IMG/VR virus record: IMGVR_UViG_3300028840_002037
Coordinates: 1-36,369 of that record
Strand: one strand, 5' to 3'
Length of the DNA stretch: 36,369 nucleotides
DNA from: a virus
The first letter of the stretch is position 1. The number at the start of each line of letters is the position of its first letter. Below the pieces are notes generated by a model. That model was given only the letters and a program-made list of their open reading frames with translations, did no database searches and had not been told where the DNA came from. A program made the position numbers and the translations under genes. Positions 1,759-20,005 of the stretch are shown one piece after another.

Positions 1759-2556
1759 TTATTTCCCGAATAATGCTCTGCTAATATGAAATAGAGAAAG
1801 AATATAACTTGTTGGGAGCGCAGCTGCAGTATAGAAACAAAGCGTCGCGCGCCCATTCAATGGGAATGTACCGCCAGAAGATGCGCCAATTGTAAATTGG
1901 GCGGTAGAGTTGAAAATAGCAGCAGGAACACCTGCAGCAAGATTTTCAATCGCATCATCTGTAAATAAATCCATCTCATTTGCAGTCGTATCAAATCTAC
2001 CCACGATGAAATACCAGTTCGTTGCAGCTACCGTGTTTGCTCCAACAGTAGCAGCCCCACCACCTCCACCAGCAGCATAGGTTGAAAAGCTAATCACATC
2101 AAGCACACTTTTTGACAATAAAAATGATTGTTGTGCGCCCAGATCGCTTTTCGCCATAAGAATATCAACTGAGCCCAAAACATCAAAATAGAACCACCCG
2201 CCAACGGTCATTCCCTGCAAAGCAGGAGCAATATATGTTTCTGTTCCTAGAATATCCAAATCTGCGCGATCGTTTCTAAACAGATAATCTCCGGTTCCAT
2301 CAAGATCAATATAAGGTGCAAGCCCCTGCAAATTATAGGTTGGATTTCCAGCGTAGGTCAACGTTTGACTTATTTCTGAAAAATCAAATGCGTTCCCCTG
2401 ATAATCGACCGTTGACATAGGCCAAAAACCGCGCAATCCTGGAATCATAGTGTAAGCGCCCATCACATCTGCCCAAGCATAATTGGGAGCATAGGTTCTC
2501 CGATACTGAGAATCTACTTGTTGCATCATAGAATCGTTCTTCTGATTGTTGGTCAT
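1759..2556 (-). CDS. LamG/concanavalin-like tail tip or receptor-binding protein
   Basis: This 265-residue protein has the look of a LamG or concanavalin A-like beta-sandwich: LRGFWPMS near residue 40, a strand with DLDGTGDYLFRND around 85-97, MTVGGWFYFD around 115-124, and WYFIVGRFDT around 182-191. These recur in laminin-G/pentraxin-type domains that bind carbohydrate. A glycine-rich loop (TYAAGGGGGAATVG) lies in the middle. It is the last gene of the tail module before lysis, the usual place for a host-recognition protein. The stop of the upstream gene is directly adjacent, so they are co-transcribed. Fold call moderately sure; receptor-binding role inferred. Confidence 0.7.
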   Translation of the reverse strand: MTNNQKNDSMMQQVDSQYRRTYAPNYAWADVMGAYTMIPGLRGFWPMSTVDYQGNAFDFSEISQTLTYAGNPTYNLQGLAPYIDLDGTGDYLFRNDRADLDILGTETYIAPALQGMTVGGWFYFDVLGSVDILMAKSDLGAQQSFLLSKSVLDVISFSTYAAGGGGGAATVGANTVAATNWYFIVGRFDTTANEMDLFTDDAIENLAAGVPAAIFNSTAQFTIGASSGGTFPLNGRATLCFYTAAALPTSYILSLFHISRALFGK

Positions 2557-8627: not shown

Positions 8628-8963
8628 CTATCGCCTTTTGAAATTTCTACCTGCATTGCTTGACGGTCTGTTTTTTCTGCGCATTTCATCTTCGTGAACC
8701 TGATTTTCATAAGCTGCGATTTCTGCGTTAGCTTGCAATTTCGCAATAGCGTATGCTTTGTCAACTTCATTCCACTGCGTCCAAAATTCAGTGGGGCGTA
8801 TCTGCCATTTTTCGCATACTTCCAGTTCCGTGAATCTCTGATTATGCGTCCATTTCCCTGGTTTCAGCTTCAATTGACTCAGGGGTTTCCCCTGATACTG
8901 CACTCCGAAATTTTTCTTTCGCGTTAGCGACAACCTCCTGAGATACTCCGCTGGCCTCAACAA
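8628..8963 (-). CDS. Tail assembly chaperone extension (GT-type), expressed by frameshift
   Basis: This frame overlaps the end of the upstream chaperone gene by about 120 bases and ends directly against the tape measure start. It has no plausible ATG; the only early start is a TTG inside the overlap. The unique part reads IRPTEFWTQWNEVDKAYAIA and then an Ala/Glu/Gln-rich helix, the usual look of the T half of lambda G/GT-type tail chaperones (EFW, a Lys/Arg-rich helix, an AEIAAYE stretch). It is therefore most likely made only as a C-terminal extension of the upstream protein. The frame lies +1 (equivalently -2) relative to the upstream gene, not the common -1. If the slip is at 8911-8915 the fusion would have about 272 residues. 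Confidence 0.8.
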   Translation of the reverse strand: MLRPAEYLRRLSLTRKKNFGVQYQGKPLSQLKLKPGKWTHNQRFTELEVCEKWQIRPTEFWTQWNEVDKAYAIAKLQANAEIAAYENQVHEDEMRRKNRPSSNAGRNFKRR

Positions 8964-9559: not shown

Positions 9560-11014
9560 TTACAAATCTCCTGCTACATAGATATTGTTGCAATTTGTCA
9601 CGTGAATATCATACAGCGCTCCGGTTCCGGATGGGAGAGATTGGGTTATCCAACTCCACCCACCGTTGATCGTGCGGAATAAACTTCCAGTAGCACCACC
9701 GGTAGAGATATGCGAGATATAACCAACATATTCGTTGCAGAATTGAATCGACTGGATCTCGCCTGTTCCAGAACCAGGATAAGATCGCTCAAACCAAGAA
9801 TCACCTCCATCATTCGAGAAATAGAGATTCCCAGAATCGTATCCAATCCAGATGCGATTGCGATCAAACGCAAACACCGCTTGTGCAATGCTCAAATTCT
9901 CTGCAGCTGGACCCGTTAGGGCGCTCCAATTCTCACCATCGGTTGTGCGCAGGATCGCGTTATTATCGCCCACCGCAAAACCAACCTTATCATCCACGAA
10001 ATACACCGAATGCAAATTTTGAGTAGTGGTTGCTCCGCTTTCTTGTGCTGTCCAGGTAATACCTGCATCCTTCGAGAAATAGATATAACCACCGGTTGTA
10101 ACAAGCCAGATATTTGATCCATTCCATGCAAAGAGCGGTTGTCCGGTTCCAATTGCATATTGACCATTCACCGCTCCCACATTCACATTCGTAAACGTTG
10201 CTCCGCGATCATCTGAATACGCAATCTCGGCGGGATTCAATCCATCCAGAGTTCCACGCGTCACAATTACACGATACGAATTTTTCGCGATTTGAACATC
10301 AACCACGCCAGAAACATCCTCGTGAGATTGGAATGGATTTGTTGCAGTTGGGAACCAGACCAGACCCCCATCATCTGTGTAATACAGATTCGTGGGAGAT
10401 CCAATCAATCCGGTAACTCCAAGATACCCATCTTGGTTTGCAGAATGCACATTCCCGCATTGACCATAACATTTTCTTGAACCAGAGAATGCTACTGACA
10501 ATCCGGTTTGTCCAGCCACACTAATGATATTCTGAGATCCGGTTGAAAGCGGGAACAATCGGTGCATCAACTTAGCAGATACATCAAACGACTGCATTGA
10601 TCGATCTTGATCGTCCGCTGACATAATCACCATTCCGGACAAGGATTCGCTCGTCACGATTGCCTTATCCAGAATGAAAGCACGATCCCAATTATCGAAT
10701 ACATCCTGACGACCACATAGCACCTGATTGATATAAATCGGCATTGGGCAATTGACTGATTCCAGCCAATCAGCTGCAGATTTTATAACTGATTCAATCG
10801 TTGTTGAAACAGGGCCAGGGCCACCAGACGCATAGATATCTAGTGGAATGAAGTTGTTAGGATGCTCCACATCAGGAATGAATACCAAAGTAGCGTCCCC
10901 TCTGGGGCGCTCAATATCTCCCAATGCGTGACAACCCAGAAAATAAGGCTGCGAGTTGGGGCCATCTGGTTGAACCCAGATAGCACCCGCACCCGCCAAA
11001 AAGCTCTTAGCCAT
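9560..11014 (-). CDS. Tail tube-like protein with C-terminal Asp-box beta-propeller (second copy)
   Basis: This 484-residue protein is a paralogue of the next gene upstream. The ATG at 11014 is preferred because AGGAGG lies seven bases before it and it then aligns with the paralogue (AKSFLAGAGAIWVQPDG against SDNFLAGEGAIFVQPDG). Residues 1-165 are the conserved part, taken to be the tail tube domain. A short cysteine-containing joint (KCYGQCG) leads into about 290 residues of repeats with Asp-box motifs: YTDDGGLVW, YSDDRGATF, FSKDAGITW, RTTDGENW, FSNDGGDSW, RTINGGWSW. Such repeats form beta-propellers (BNR/sortilin/Ycf48-like), often sugar binding. Position before the chaperone genes supports the tail tube call. 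One copy could be the main tube and the other a minor form. Confidence 0.75.
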   Translation of the reverse strand: MAKSFLAGAGAIWVQPDGPNSQPYFLGCHALGDIERPRGDATLVFIPDVEHPNNFIPLDIYASGGPGPVSTTIESVIKSAADWLESVNCPMPIYINQVLCGRQDVFDNWDRAFILDKAIVTSESLSGMVIMSADDQDRSMQSFDVSAKLMHRLFPLSTGSQNIISVAGQTGLSVAFSGSRKCYGQCGNVHSANQDGYLGVTGLIGSPTNLYYTDDGGLVWFPTATNPFQSHEDVSGVVDVQIAKNSYRVIVTRGTLDGLNPAEIAYSDDRGATFTNVNVGAVNGQYAIGTGQPLFAWNGSNIWLVTTGGYIYFSKDAGITWTAQESGATTTQNLHSVYFVDDKVGFAVGDNNAILRTTDGENWSALTGPAAENLSIAQAVFAFDRNRIWIGYDSGNLYFSNDGGDSWFERSYPGSGTGEIQSIQFCNEYVGYISHISTGGATGSLFRTINGGWSWITQSLPSGTGALYDIHVTNCNNIYVAGDL

Positions 11015-11041
11015 TGTTATGCCTCCTAGTGGCACGAATGA

Positions 11042-12499
11042 CTAATTCGATGCCTTAATAATCATTCCGGTAGCAGCATCAACTTCGCCAACGCCAAACA
11101 GTTCATTCTCACCACACAATACAAGCTGATTCAATCCGCTGTTAGCGGTGATCGTGATTGTTTGCCATGTATAGCCACCGTCAATTGTGCGCAGGATTGC
11201 ATCACTTGAACTGGTGCCAATCAAGAAACCATAAAGTTCGTTGATGAATCTAACATCAAGAACACTACCCGCTGCTCCTGCAGGATATGTCCGCTGTGCC
11301 CAGGTTGTCCCTGCATCATTTGTGTAATACAGTTCTCCTGCATCGTCACCAACCCAAATACGATTGCGGTCAATCATCCAAACGGATACCAATCCGTTCC
11401 CGCCACCGGTAGCAGTAACCGTATCCCAGGTATCGCCACCATCGATGGTTCGAATGATCGTGTCCGTATCGCCAACTGCGAAACCATTATTTGCATCGAT
11501 GAAATGCACACCGTACAAATCGTTCGCAGTTACGGTTCCAGCATCCTGCAGCGTCCAGGTTGCGCCACCATCGGACGAATACCCAATGTTGCCACCTTCC
11601 AGAACAGCCCAAATATTGCTAGGATCGTAAGCGAATAGAGCGCGGAATCCCACAGCACCCACGTTGTTTGCAGTAGCAATGTCCGCGTTTGTCCAGGTTG
11701 CGCCGTTATCATCCGAATACGCCACCTCTGCATTATCGGCAACATCAGCATCCCGAATACATAGAATACGAGTTATATTCTTGTCAACAGGGAAACAAAC
11801 AATGCTCATAATGTTCTCGTCTGCAGCGAAAGGATCAGCAGCAGTAGCAGCAAAGTTTGCTCCATGATCTGTTGAGCGCAGAACATTCGCGGTCAACCCG
11901 CCAGCTGCCTCGCATCCAATCACCAGAACATCGCAGAAATCACTCGAATCTCCGCAATCGCCAGAACAAGCAGGATCAGAGCAACTCGCAATACAGTTGA
12001 GCGCTTGCGATTCGGTGGTTGCTTTTCGCTGCCCCACCATCTCAAACCCTTTAAACATCGCCTCAGATGCCATCGAGAAGGTACTGAGAACTTCATCCTG
12101 AGAATCAGGGGTACGCGCGGCCAGATTTGCAATTGATTCGCTCGTAATATATGTTGCGGGGAGCGAATAAGCGCGCTCGAAAACAAAGGTGTCTTTTCGT
12201 CCACATTTGTTCATGAGTACATGAACCGGAACTGGACACGATACCTTTTCAAGCCAATCCGCTGTGCGCCCAACTTTCATCTCGATATCGAAAGTTACGG
12301 GGCCAGGGGCAGCTTGTGAAGAGTTGTCTACCACAAATTTGTTTGGGGCAGATGGATCAGGGCAATAATAGAGCGTGACATCACCTTTGGGAACATCAAT
12401 CCCCAATAACTGATGACAGCCCAAATAGCGGGGCTGTGTATTCGCTCCATCCGGTTGAACAAAAATTGCGCCTTCACCTGCTAAGAAATTATCACTCAT
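11042..12499 (-). CDS. Tail tube-like protein with C-terminal Asp-box beta-propeller (first copy)
   Basis: The 485-residue product begins SDNFLAGEGAIFVQPDG and has the same two-part build as its neighbour. Residues 1-170 are the probable tube domain, a cysteine-rich joint (CIASCSDPACSGDCGDSSDFC, residues about 169-189) follows, then six Asp-box repeats: RSTDHGANF, YSDDNGATW, YSSDGGATW, RTIDGGDTW, YTNDAGTTW, RTIDGGYTW. Each is followed by a hydrophobic strand (for example LYGVHFIDANNGFAVGD), as in Ycf48- or sortilin-type propellers. The clustered cysteines may brace the link. It follows the gp10-like completion gene, the usual place of the major tail protein. Tail tube proteins with small C-terminal Ig-like domains are known; a full propeller is unusual. 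The domain split is read by eye. Confidence 0.75.
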   Translation of the reverse strand: MSDNFLAGEGAIFVQPDGANTQPRYLGCHQLLGIDVPKGDVTLYYCPDPSAPNKFVVDNSSQAAPGPVTFDIEMKVGRTADWLEKVSCPVPVHVLMNKCGRKDTFVFERAYSLPATYITSESIANLAARTPDSQDEVLSTFSMASEAMFKGFEMVGQRKATTESQALNCIASCSDPACSGDCGDSSDFCDVLVIGCEAAGGLTANVLRSTDHGANFAATAADPFAADENIMSIVCFPVDKNITRILCIRDADVADNAEVAYSDDNGATWTNADIATANNVGAVGFRALFAYDPSNIWAVLEGGNIGYSSDGGATWTLQDAGTVTANDLYGVHFIDANNGFAVGDTDTIIRTIDGGDTWDTVTATGGGNGLVSVWMIDRNRIWVGDDAGELYYTNDAGTTWAQRTYPAGAAGSVLDVRFINELYGFLIGTSSSDAILRTIDGGYTWQTITITANSGLNQLVLCGENELFGVGEVDAATGMIIKASN

Positions 12500-12514: not shown

Positions 12515-13018
12515 CTAATTGTATGAATGGCCCGATTTTTTATTCGCACGAGAAATCGCTTGTTCCATCCTGCGCTTATAAATTGGAGTCCATTTTTTCT
12601 GAATTACCTTATCGAAATTTCTTGCTTTCGTTCCTGGATGTATCACCCAGGATGCAAACACAGTATTCCCAGAAGAACCACCGGAACGCGAGCCGATCAT
12701 GTTCGGGATGGTCTTGGGTTTATACTGAGATTTGAATGCTAATACTCCACCCGGTTTCTTGGGTTGAATAATATGCTCTTTTGTGCCGCGATCTACATAA
12801 CCGTATATCTCATCGTCTGTTCCCACATAAATATCAATGGAATTAGGACCTACCGCCACGATCATTTCAAATTTAGGTTTGCGCTCCCAGGTGCTGACCG
12901 TCTTTTGAAAATCATTGCGAATATCACGCGCCGTAGTTTTCGCAGTAATAAAGATCTCTTTGCGAAATACATCATCCTTGAATTTCTTGGGCGTGAGTGC
13001 TTTGACTATGAGCGCCAT
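12515..13018 (-). CDS. HK97 gp10-like tail completion protein
   Basis: The 167-residue protein carries the marks of the HK97-gp10 family of neck or tail completion proteins: YGYVDRGTKEHIIQPK (about residues 72-87), a strand with GGVLAF, and HPGTKARNF (127-135) before a C-terminal basic helix. These proteins close the head end of the tail and join it to the connector. The gene starts directly after the stop of the 180-residue gene and precedes the tail tube genes, the usual order. The N-terminal helix (DDVFRKEIFITAKTTARDIR) is longer than in many members, otherwise the length is typical. Confidence 0.85.
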   Translation of the reverse strand: MALIVKALTPKKFKDDVFRKEIFITAKTTARDIRNDFQKTVSTWERKPKFEMIVAVGPNSIDIYVGTDDEIYGYVDRGTKEHIIQPKKPGGVLAFKSQYKPKTIPNMIGSRSGGSSGNTVFASWVIHPGTKARNFDKVIQKKWTPIYKRRMEQAISRANKKSGHSYN

Positions 13019-18961: not shown

Positions 18962-19948
18962 TTAGGTGGGATTTGTAATTGCCAATCCATTCATGCAGTG
19001 ATTTCCAACCCAGGCATCGGTAGCAGCTGCGGTATTCAAATCGTCATAATCACCATTTGCGGGAACCGGAAGTAAGCAGGAGAAATAATTGTTAGCAACC
19101 ATGTTCCTGTCACCGCCAGTTGTGTTGATTCCTTCATTGGCAGCTGCAGCAGCACCCTGGGCGCTCGAATTGTAAATCTTGTTATTAGAAATCACGTTAT
19201 CATCGCATCCACCGAGCAACGAAATCGCAATTGCGCAATCATGGAATACGTTGTTTTCAATCAGGGAGAAAGCTACTCCGCTGCCAGCAACGGGCGAGGA
19301 TATCCCGTACACATCGCATTTCCAGAACAGATTGTCGTGAATATTGCAATACCAGGAGTAATCCAGTTCAATCGCAGTATCAACCGTATCATCAAAAATG
19401 CAATTGCGTACCGTGAGATTTTCGCCGAACAATGTAGTTCCATCCCATTCTGCAGCAATCGCATTACATCCGGCAAACGTAGGCCCTTCTGAGAAGAAAA
19501 AACCTTCAATGGTCACATCAATCGCTGCCACCGTAATACACGTTCCTGCATTGCTCGCAGGATACCAATATACACCTTGACCAGATTGGCAAACGCCCAC
19601 GATCTTTACGCCAGGAACCGTAATGGTTACTTCTTCTGAAATTGCAACCGTGTTCCCATCTGCAGAATTTCCATACTGCCAGGAATTGTTCGCCATCACC
19701 GCGATTACATCTCCGCGATAAGGTTGGCATTTCGTGAGAGCAGTAGCAACTGAAGTCAATGGAGCAGTTGGATCAGTTCCATCGCGCAGATTGTTATTGT
19801 CCACATGATTAGGATCAACATAGAACACCTGTCCCTGCGTGTTCTGCCGTAATCCATATTCCGCAACAGCACCAGGGACTCCAAATTGACCAGGATAACC
19901 TGAGTCTTGGATTTGTGGATTAGGCCAATTTACATTTGTGGCTGGCAT
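18962..19948 (-). CDS. Right-handed beta-helix virion protein, second tandem copy
   Basis: The 328-residue protein has the same length as its upstream paralogue when started at ATG 19948, which has AAGGA seven bases before it; a start at 19993 would lie inside a hairpin. The N-terminus (GYPGQFGVPGAVAEYGLRQN) matches the paralogue. The body shows parallel beta-helix repeats: NLTVRNCIFDDTVDTAIELD, NIHDNLFWKCDVYG, LIENNVFHDCAIAISLLG, NVISNNKIYNSSAQG, NMVANNYF. Such folds occur in pectate lyases and phage tailspikes that bind or cut polysaccharides. Placed right after the capsid genes it is more likely a head-surface protein than a tailspike. Enzyme activity cannot be judged by eye. Confidence 0.75.
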   Translation of the reverse strand: MPATNVNWPNPQIQDSGYPGQFGVPGAVAEYGLRQNTQGQVFYVDPNHVDNNNLRDGTDPTAPLTSVATALTKCQPYRGDVIAVMANNSWQYGNSADGNTVAISEEVTITVPGVKIVGVCQSGQGVYWYPASNAGTCITVAAIDVTIEGFFFSEGPTFAGCNAIAAEWDGTTLFGENLTVRNCIFDDTVDTAIELDYSWYCNIHDNLFWKCDVYGISSPVAGSGVAFSLIENNVFHDCAIAISLLGGCDDNVISNNKIYNSSAQGAAAAANEGINTTGGDRNMVANNYFSCLLPVPANGDYDDLNTAAATDAWVGNHCMNGLAITNPT

Positions 19949-19968
19949 AACATATTCCTTTTCGATTG

Positions 19969-20005
19969 TTCTGGGGTTGCGCAGAGCATCCACGCAACCC
20001 CAGAA
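19969..20005 (-). other. Perfect 13-bp hairpin between the two beta-helix genes
   Basis: TTCTGGGGTTGCG (19969-19981) and its exact complement CGCAACCCCAGAA (19993-20005) flank an 11-base loop. It occupies nearly all of the gap between the two paralogous genes. No U-run follows in the transcribed direction, so it is not a standard terminator. It may block exonucleases and stabilise the upstream message, or cause partial polymerase release, giving the two paralogues different dose. Confidence 0.7.

Follow-up and report, generated by a model that had tools for sequence, protein, structure and literature searches.

Phage tail tube-like proteins fused to Asp-box propellers in an uncultured virus and its relatives

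By computational analysis we found that two adjacent genes of a virus record encode proteins which each very probably, to a high degree of confidence, join an N-terminal tail tube domain to a C-terminal beta-propeller (Table 1). The genes lie in IMGVR_UViG_3300028840_002037, a record which is probably a fragment and which was analysed over 36.4 kb (hereafter "the window"). We consider it likely that the best explanation is that these are the major tail tube proteins of a siphovirus, with outward-facing propellers which would provide multivalent, low-affinity binding to the host.

The two proteins, P0001 and P0002, are paralogues (37% identity across the full length, E = 1e-111) and have the same layout: an N-terminal domain of ~165 residues, a short cysteine-containing linker and a C-terminal domain with six Asp boxes. 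Both carry the shared N-terminal FLAGxGAI.VQPDG reported in the initial annotation, and the start of P0002 is probably the ATG at position 11014 (MAKSFLAG...) and not the GTG at 11035. An assembly artefact was excluded, since both genes are present in two other IMG/VR records, at 100% identity in L001 and at 74% and 77% identity in L002. The full-length AlphaFold2 model of P0001 had a pLDDT of 90.8 and a pTM of 0.87.

Table 1 Features of the tail region and of other genes in the window
Feature	Position	Strand	Basis
Tape measure protein, 938 aa	5811..8627	-	weak PHROG tape-measure match
gpT-like ORF overlapping the chaperone gene, presumed frameshift extension	8628..8963	-	+1 frame
Tail assembly chaperone, gpG-like, 200 aa	8842..9444	-	position, conserved overlapping +1-frame ORF
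Tail tube-propeller protein copy 2 (P0002, 484 aa)	9560..11014	-	copy 1 paralogue, Pfam
Tail tube-propeller protein copy 1 (P0001, 485 aa)	11042..12499	-	AlphaFold2, Pfam, alignment of 34 sequences
Copy 1 seven-bladed Asp-box propeller, residues 191-485	11042..11929	-	Pfam, profile search, Foldseek
Copy 1 cysteine-containing linker, about residues 169-190	11930..11995	-	sequence, family conservation
Copy 1 tube domain, residues 1-172	11984..12499	-	AlphaFold2, Foldseek
gp10-like head-tail completion gene, 167 aa, immediately upstream of the tube-propeller pair	12515..13018	-	synteny, inspection of the sequence
LamG-like lectin protein, downstream	1759-2556	-	Pfam (2e-7)
Second tandem pair, 638 aa	13561-15477	-	
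Second tandem pair, 647 aa	15481-17424	-	
Right-handed beta-helix protein, tail-spike-like, lying between the capsid genes and the tail genes	18962-19993	-	

Fold comparison was needed to identify the N-terminal domain, because PHROGs gave no match to the 34 N-terminal domains of the family and Pfam gave no match to a tube family in the two proteins of the window. A PDB sequence search using the N-terminal domain profile also returned nothing significant. It should be noted that tube families are diverse in sequence, and that a missing sequence match lowers only the case for membership of a described sequence family. The domain folded alone was modelled with a pLDDT of 84.0, and its best Foldseek matches in the PDB had the tail tube/Hcp fold (E down to 6e-6, TM up to 0.71 on the target, 5-14% sequence identity); these included the PVC and AFP tubes, the Sf11 tail, 80alpha, the cyanophage A-1(L) tube, lambda V, SPP1 and T6SS Hcp. 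Amongst the best 50 PDB matches to residues 1-172, all were tail, tube, cap, neck, baseplate, Hcp or T6SS proteins, bar one uncharacterised structural-genomics entry. The earlier proposal that the first ~170 residues adopt a tube fold therefore agrees with Foldseek and the AlphaFold2 model.

The absence of a PHROG or Pfam sequence match would also be expected if these were tail-attached fibre or decoration proteins which occupy the tube slot while the true tube is encoded by another gene, and only some of the neighbouring ORFs were folded. However, almost all of the fold matches are to tail tube-fold proteins, and gene order also argues against this reading, which we regard as extremely improbable. 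In most loci the order is the gp10-like gene, a small gene (c3), the tube-propeller gene, a chaperone gene of ~200 residues, the tape measure gene and the distal tail genes; c3 is absent from the window, and in most relatives no gene other than the tube-propeller gene separates the chaperone from the head-tail completion genes. This synteny bears out the slot between gp10-like and chaperone genes to which the pair had been assigned. We found no separate tube gene in the stretch from the head genes to the tape measure in any phage examined. Dit, the other tail protein with a tube fold, is recognised by PHROGs and Pfam as a separate gene in one relative (L013), where the orthologous slot has a tape-measure match at 6e-54 together with Pfam TMP_3. 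Gene order and the L013 annotations thus place the propeller protein in the tube position with Dit accounted for.

The neighbouring genes are consistent in arrangement across the family. The gp10-like family (c2) was present in 32 of the examined loci; its name comes from inspection of the sequence and from synteny, as it had no Pfam or PHROG match, and PDB profile searches with the gp10-like and c3 neighbours gave nothing significant. A +1-frame ORF overlapping the chaperone gene was found in 15 of the 16 loci tested, with a conserved C-terminal extension sequence. The gpG and gpGT proteins of lambda have the same arrangement of a chaperone and an overlapping ORF; the +1-frame overlap in these 15 loci implies a +1 or -2 frameshift, unlike the -1 shift of lambda.

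Several other genes of the window are also worthy of note. A second tandem pair, whose members are 52% identical and are also in tandem in L002, had no Pfam, PHROG or PDB match; from its sequence, its two repeats look like ConA/LamG-type lectin domains. This pair was considered as a rival for the tube or sheath and was rejected. The LamG-like protein and the beta-helix protein are potential further host-surface proteins.

The C-terminal domain was recognised by sequence as well as by fold. Using the strict Asp box pattern [ST]xDxGxx[WF], we found six boxes in P0001 (at residues 209, 262, 308, 351, 393 and 438), compared to a mean of 0.04 and a maximum of 3 in 1000 residue shuffles, and in P0002 four strict and two degenerate boxes, so that the six repeats per protein originally described were recovered in both. 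Pfam PSII_BNR (PF14870) matched P0001 at 1.1e-17 (64.7 bits) and P0002 at 4.8e-13 (49.5 bits), with a cut-off of 27; Sortilin-Vps10 was above its curated cut-off in both proteins and BNR in P0001. Ycf48 propellers were the best sequence-profile match of the domain (2.5e-23) and the best Foldseek match of the full P0001 model (E = 1.8e-12, TM 0.69-0.75 on the target), and the likeness of residues ~190-485 to Ycf48 which had been put forward for checking thus holds in both profile and fold. The number of seven blades is taken from the Ycf48 fold match, not from coordinates.

Sialidases and GH74 xyloglucanases also have the Asp-box propeller fold and were matched in the profile search, which raises the reading that the propeller is a glycoside hydrolase of one of these types, degrading host glycans along the tail. 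We consider this very improbable. Its closest matches, the Ycf48 propellers, are non-enzymatic, and GH74 enzymes have two propellers whereas the proteins of the window have one. Moreover, the Asp residues conserved in at least 85% of the family lie only in or next to the Asp boxes, bar D17 of the tube domain, and no Glu is so conserved; the lack of conserved acidic propeller residues beyond the boxes and their neighbours makes an enzyme unlikely.

The segment joining the two domains had been described as cysteine-rich. This fits P0001, which has five cysteines in its linker (169, 173, 178, 182 and 189), and is a poorer fit to P0002, which has two. Within the family, linker C178 (33 of 34 members) and C182 (30 of 34) are near-invariant. 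It should also be noted that these two cysteines and C28, C46, C88 and C99 of the tube domain are retained by 85-97% of the family; conserved cysteines are unusual in tail tubes, and C46 is missing in copy 2.

Profile-based scans of IMG/VR yielded 34 full-length sequences from 32 contigs, the window included. The same fusion was found in 30 other IMG/VR contigs, and additionally in Anaerolineae/Chloroflexota MAG contigs and in one likely prophage. The propeller was present in every complete ORF bearing the N-terminal domain, and no complete tube domain was found without it. In GTDB only two MAG contigs matched, one titled Anaerolineae bacterium and the other Chloroflexota bacterium, and a draw of 396 genomes from the class Anaerolineae yielded G374 and G226 as two further cases with both domains. 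The version in G326 is more divergent, yet hhalign aligned it to the family profile from end to end (probability 99.8%, E = 2e-28). At its locus (L110-L111, G326:C6:160000-199000) the gene has portal and HK97-type capsid genes as neighbours, on a 526 kb Anaerolineae contig which also carries galactokinase and FAD-oxidoreductase genes, and the locus is probably a prophage. These matches point to Chloroflexota as the hosts of the family, bearing in mind that the genome draw was of one class and that the binning of phage contigs into MAGs is not always reliable. Using five members as tblastn queries, we found no phage encoding the family in a cultured-phage collection of 50,697 records: the matches were either partial, to the propellers of unrelated tail-fibre or baseplate proteins, or absent. 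The best match in BFVD, A0A1P8DJ39, aligned over both domains (TM 0.75/0.73), and the modelled structures suggest that it is another viral protein with the tube-propeller architecture; we found no mention of it in the literature searched.

A separate observation concerns a 101.6 kb Anaerolineae MAG contig (G001:C7; L079, L087-L091), which is likely circular, having a 127-base terminal overlap. It carries propeller-tube tail genes, a ParB-like protein, a terminase, a SMODS and SAVED pair (CBASS-like) and Eco57I-like and Mrr-type methylase/restriction genes, and is possibly a phage-plasmid with defence systems.

The two tandem copies in the initial annotation are real in the window, but are an exception, as its relatives generally have one copy. 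Two copies were found in the window and L001 and in L002; among the remaining members whose flanking genes could be seen, all had one copy except L032, which has a second, separate pair. In the propeller tree the L032 pair falls together and far from the window pair. Tandem duplication is therefore rare in this family. Between the window and L002, pN was 0.07-0.21 in both domains of both copies with synonymous change near saturation, though dS was saturated in most pairs and dN/dS is a rough guide only; since dN is low against near-saturated synonymous change, neither copy is decaying, and both are functional and maintained by purifying selection. In the same comparison copy 1 had 90% identity in the tube domain and 67% in the propeller, and copy 2 had 73% in the tube domain and 80-81% in the propeller, a difference which suggests that the two subunits are under different constraints. 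The propeller diverged faster than the tube domain in four of six close pairs; for L028/L038 and for copy 2 the tube domain was the faster-evolving part.

We propose that the N-terminal ~165 residues would form the core of the tube, presumably as hexameric rings stacked to a length set by the tape measure. By the rule of 1.5 Å of tail per tape-measure residue and ~4 nm per ring, the 938-residue tape measure would give a tail of about 140 nm, made of about 35 rings and bearing about 200 propellers. The C-terminal ~295 residues would form a Ycf48-like propeller, attached by a short linker whose cysteines are conserved. As in lambda gpV, SPP1 gp17.1* and the TpeX of 936 phages, the propellers would face outwards along the whole tail, as the C-terminal domains of known tube proteins project outwards (PMC9022992). 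Multivalent weak binding, to glycan or protein, may then hold the virion close to the cell before the tail tip meets its receptor, and in the duplicated lineage the tail would probably be built from two tube subunits.

The faster divergence of the propeller in most close pairs is as expected for an exposed module in contact with the host. A binding role is also favoured by precedent, namely the host-binding modules on the tube proteins of 936 phages (PMC6669499) and the propellers known in other phage tail proteins (PMC6115969). However, this signature is not uniform, given copy 2 and L028/L038, and the nearest structural relative, Ycf48, binds protein and not sugar. That the propeller is kept in lock-step although the family is so diverged would be compatible with a structural role too, in which the propellers pack within and between rings, giving the tail stiffness or protection and making little contact with the host. 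Such a sleeve could explain why the propeller is never lost in complete members despite deep divergence, and why the non-repeat propeller residues P223, F224 and R244 and the linker cysteines are conserved, which suggests fixed contacts. The faster divergence of the propeller in most close pairs counts against it, as does the fact that known Ig-like tube domains are dispensable for tube formation, those of lambda and YSD1 being flexible (PMC9022992); we consider the sleeve unlikely. Outward-facing propellers on major tube proteins remain our preferred explanation, with adhesion as their function held at only slightly better than even confidence. The fullest version of this proposal, in which an uncultured phage clade, probably of Anaerolineae/Chloroflexota hosts, bears a propeller adhesin on every subunit and the lineage of the window has a mixed tail with two specificities, is tentative and on balance doubtful.

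Tail tube proteins with a C-terminal surface domain are already known, and extra domains on tail tubes are common, with a role which is still unclear (PMC9022992). Lambda gpV, T5 pb6 and SPP1 gp17.1* resemble the proteins of the window in joining a tube fold to a C-terminal domain on the tail surface, but theirs is one Ig-like/FN3 domain of ~90 residues and not a propeller of ~295 residues (PMC9022992). The 936-group lactococcal phages contradict the earlier statement that small Ig-like domains are the most that known tube proteins carry, as in these phages TpeX extensions give tube proteins of 470-530 residues with a BppA-type carbohydrate-binding module which has been shown to bind host cells (PMC6669499). 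These MTP-TpeX proteins are close in plan, sharing a length of ~470-530 residues, a tube core of ~165 residues and a large C-terminal domain, host-binding in TpeX and putatively so here, along the tail. However, TpeX is added to a fraction of subunits by a programmed frameshift, whereas each gene of the window is a single uninterrupted ORF with the propeller in frame and thus on every subunit; and TpeX has a BppA-type module after an adhesin domain, a different fold from the Ycf48-type propeller.

Propellers themselves are known in receptor-binding or peripheral tail proteins, namely phi11 RBP (gp45), PRD1 P2 and phiKZ gp131 (PMC6115969), but these are separate proteins with other blade numbers or of other families, and not part of the tube subunit. 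Ycf48/HCF136 (PSII_BNR) has the same seven-bladed Asp-box propeller but is a photosystem II assembly factor, a role which would be implausible in a phage tail, whereas here the propeller is fused to a tail tube domain. A literature search, with most subscription papers outside its reach, found no description of a tube protein with a propeller. The propeller provides a sequence handle for tube genes which Pfam and PHROGs do not recognise, in phages probably of Chloroflexota, and its obligate presence makes host binding by the tail shaft testable with one purified domain. While the Ig-like and carbohydrate-binding extensions described to date are small or on some subunits, the propeller is obligate across a diverse family; what is new is that the extra domain is a propeller and that it is encoded in frame on every subunit family-wide, along with the tandem duplication.
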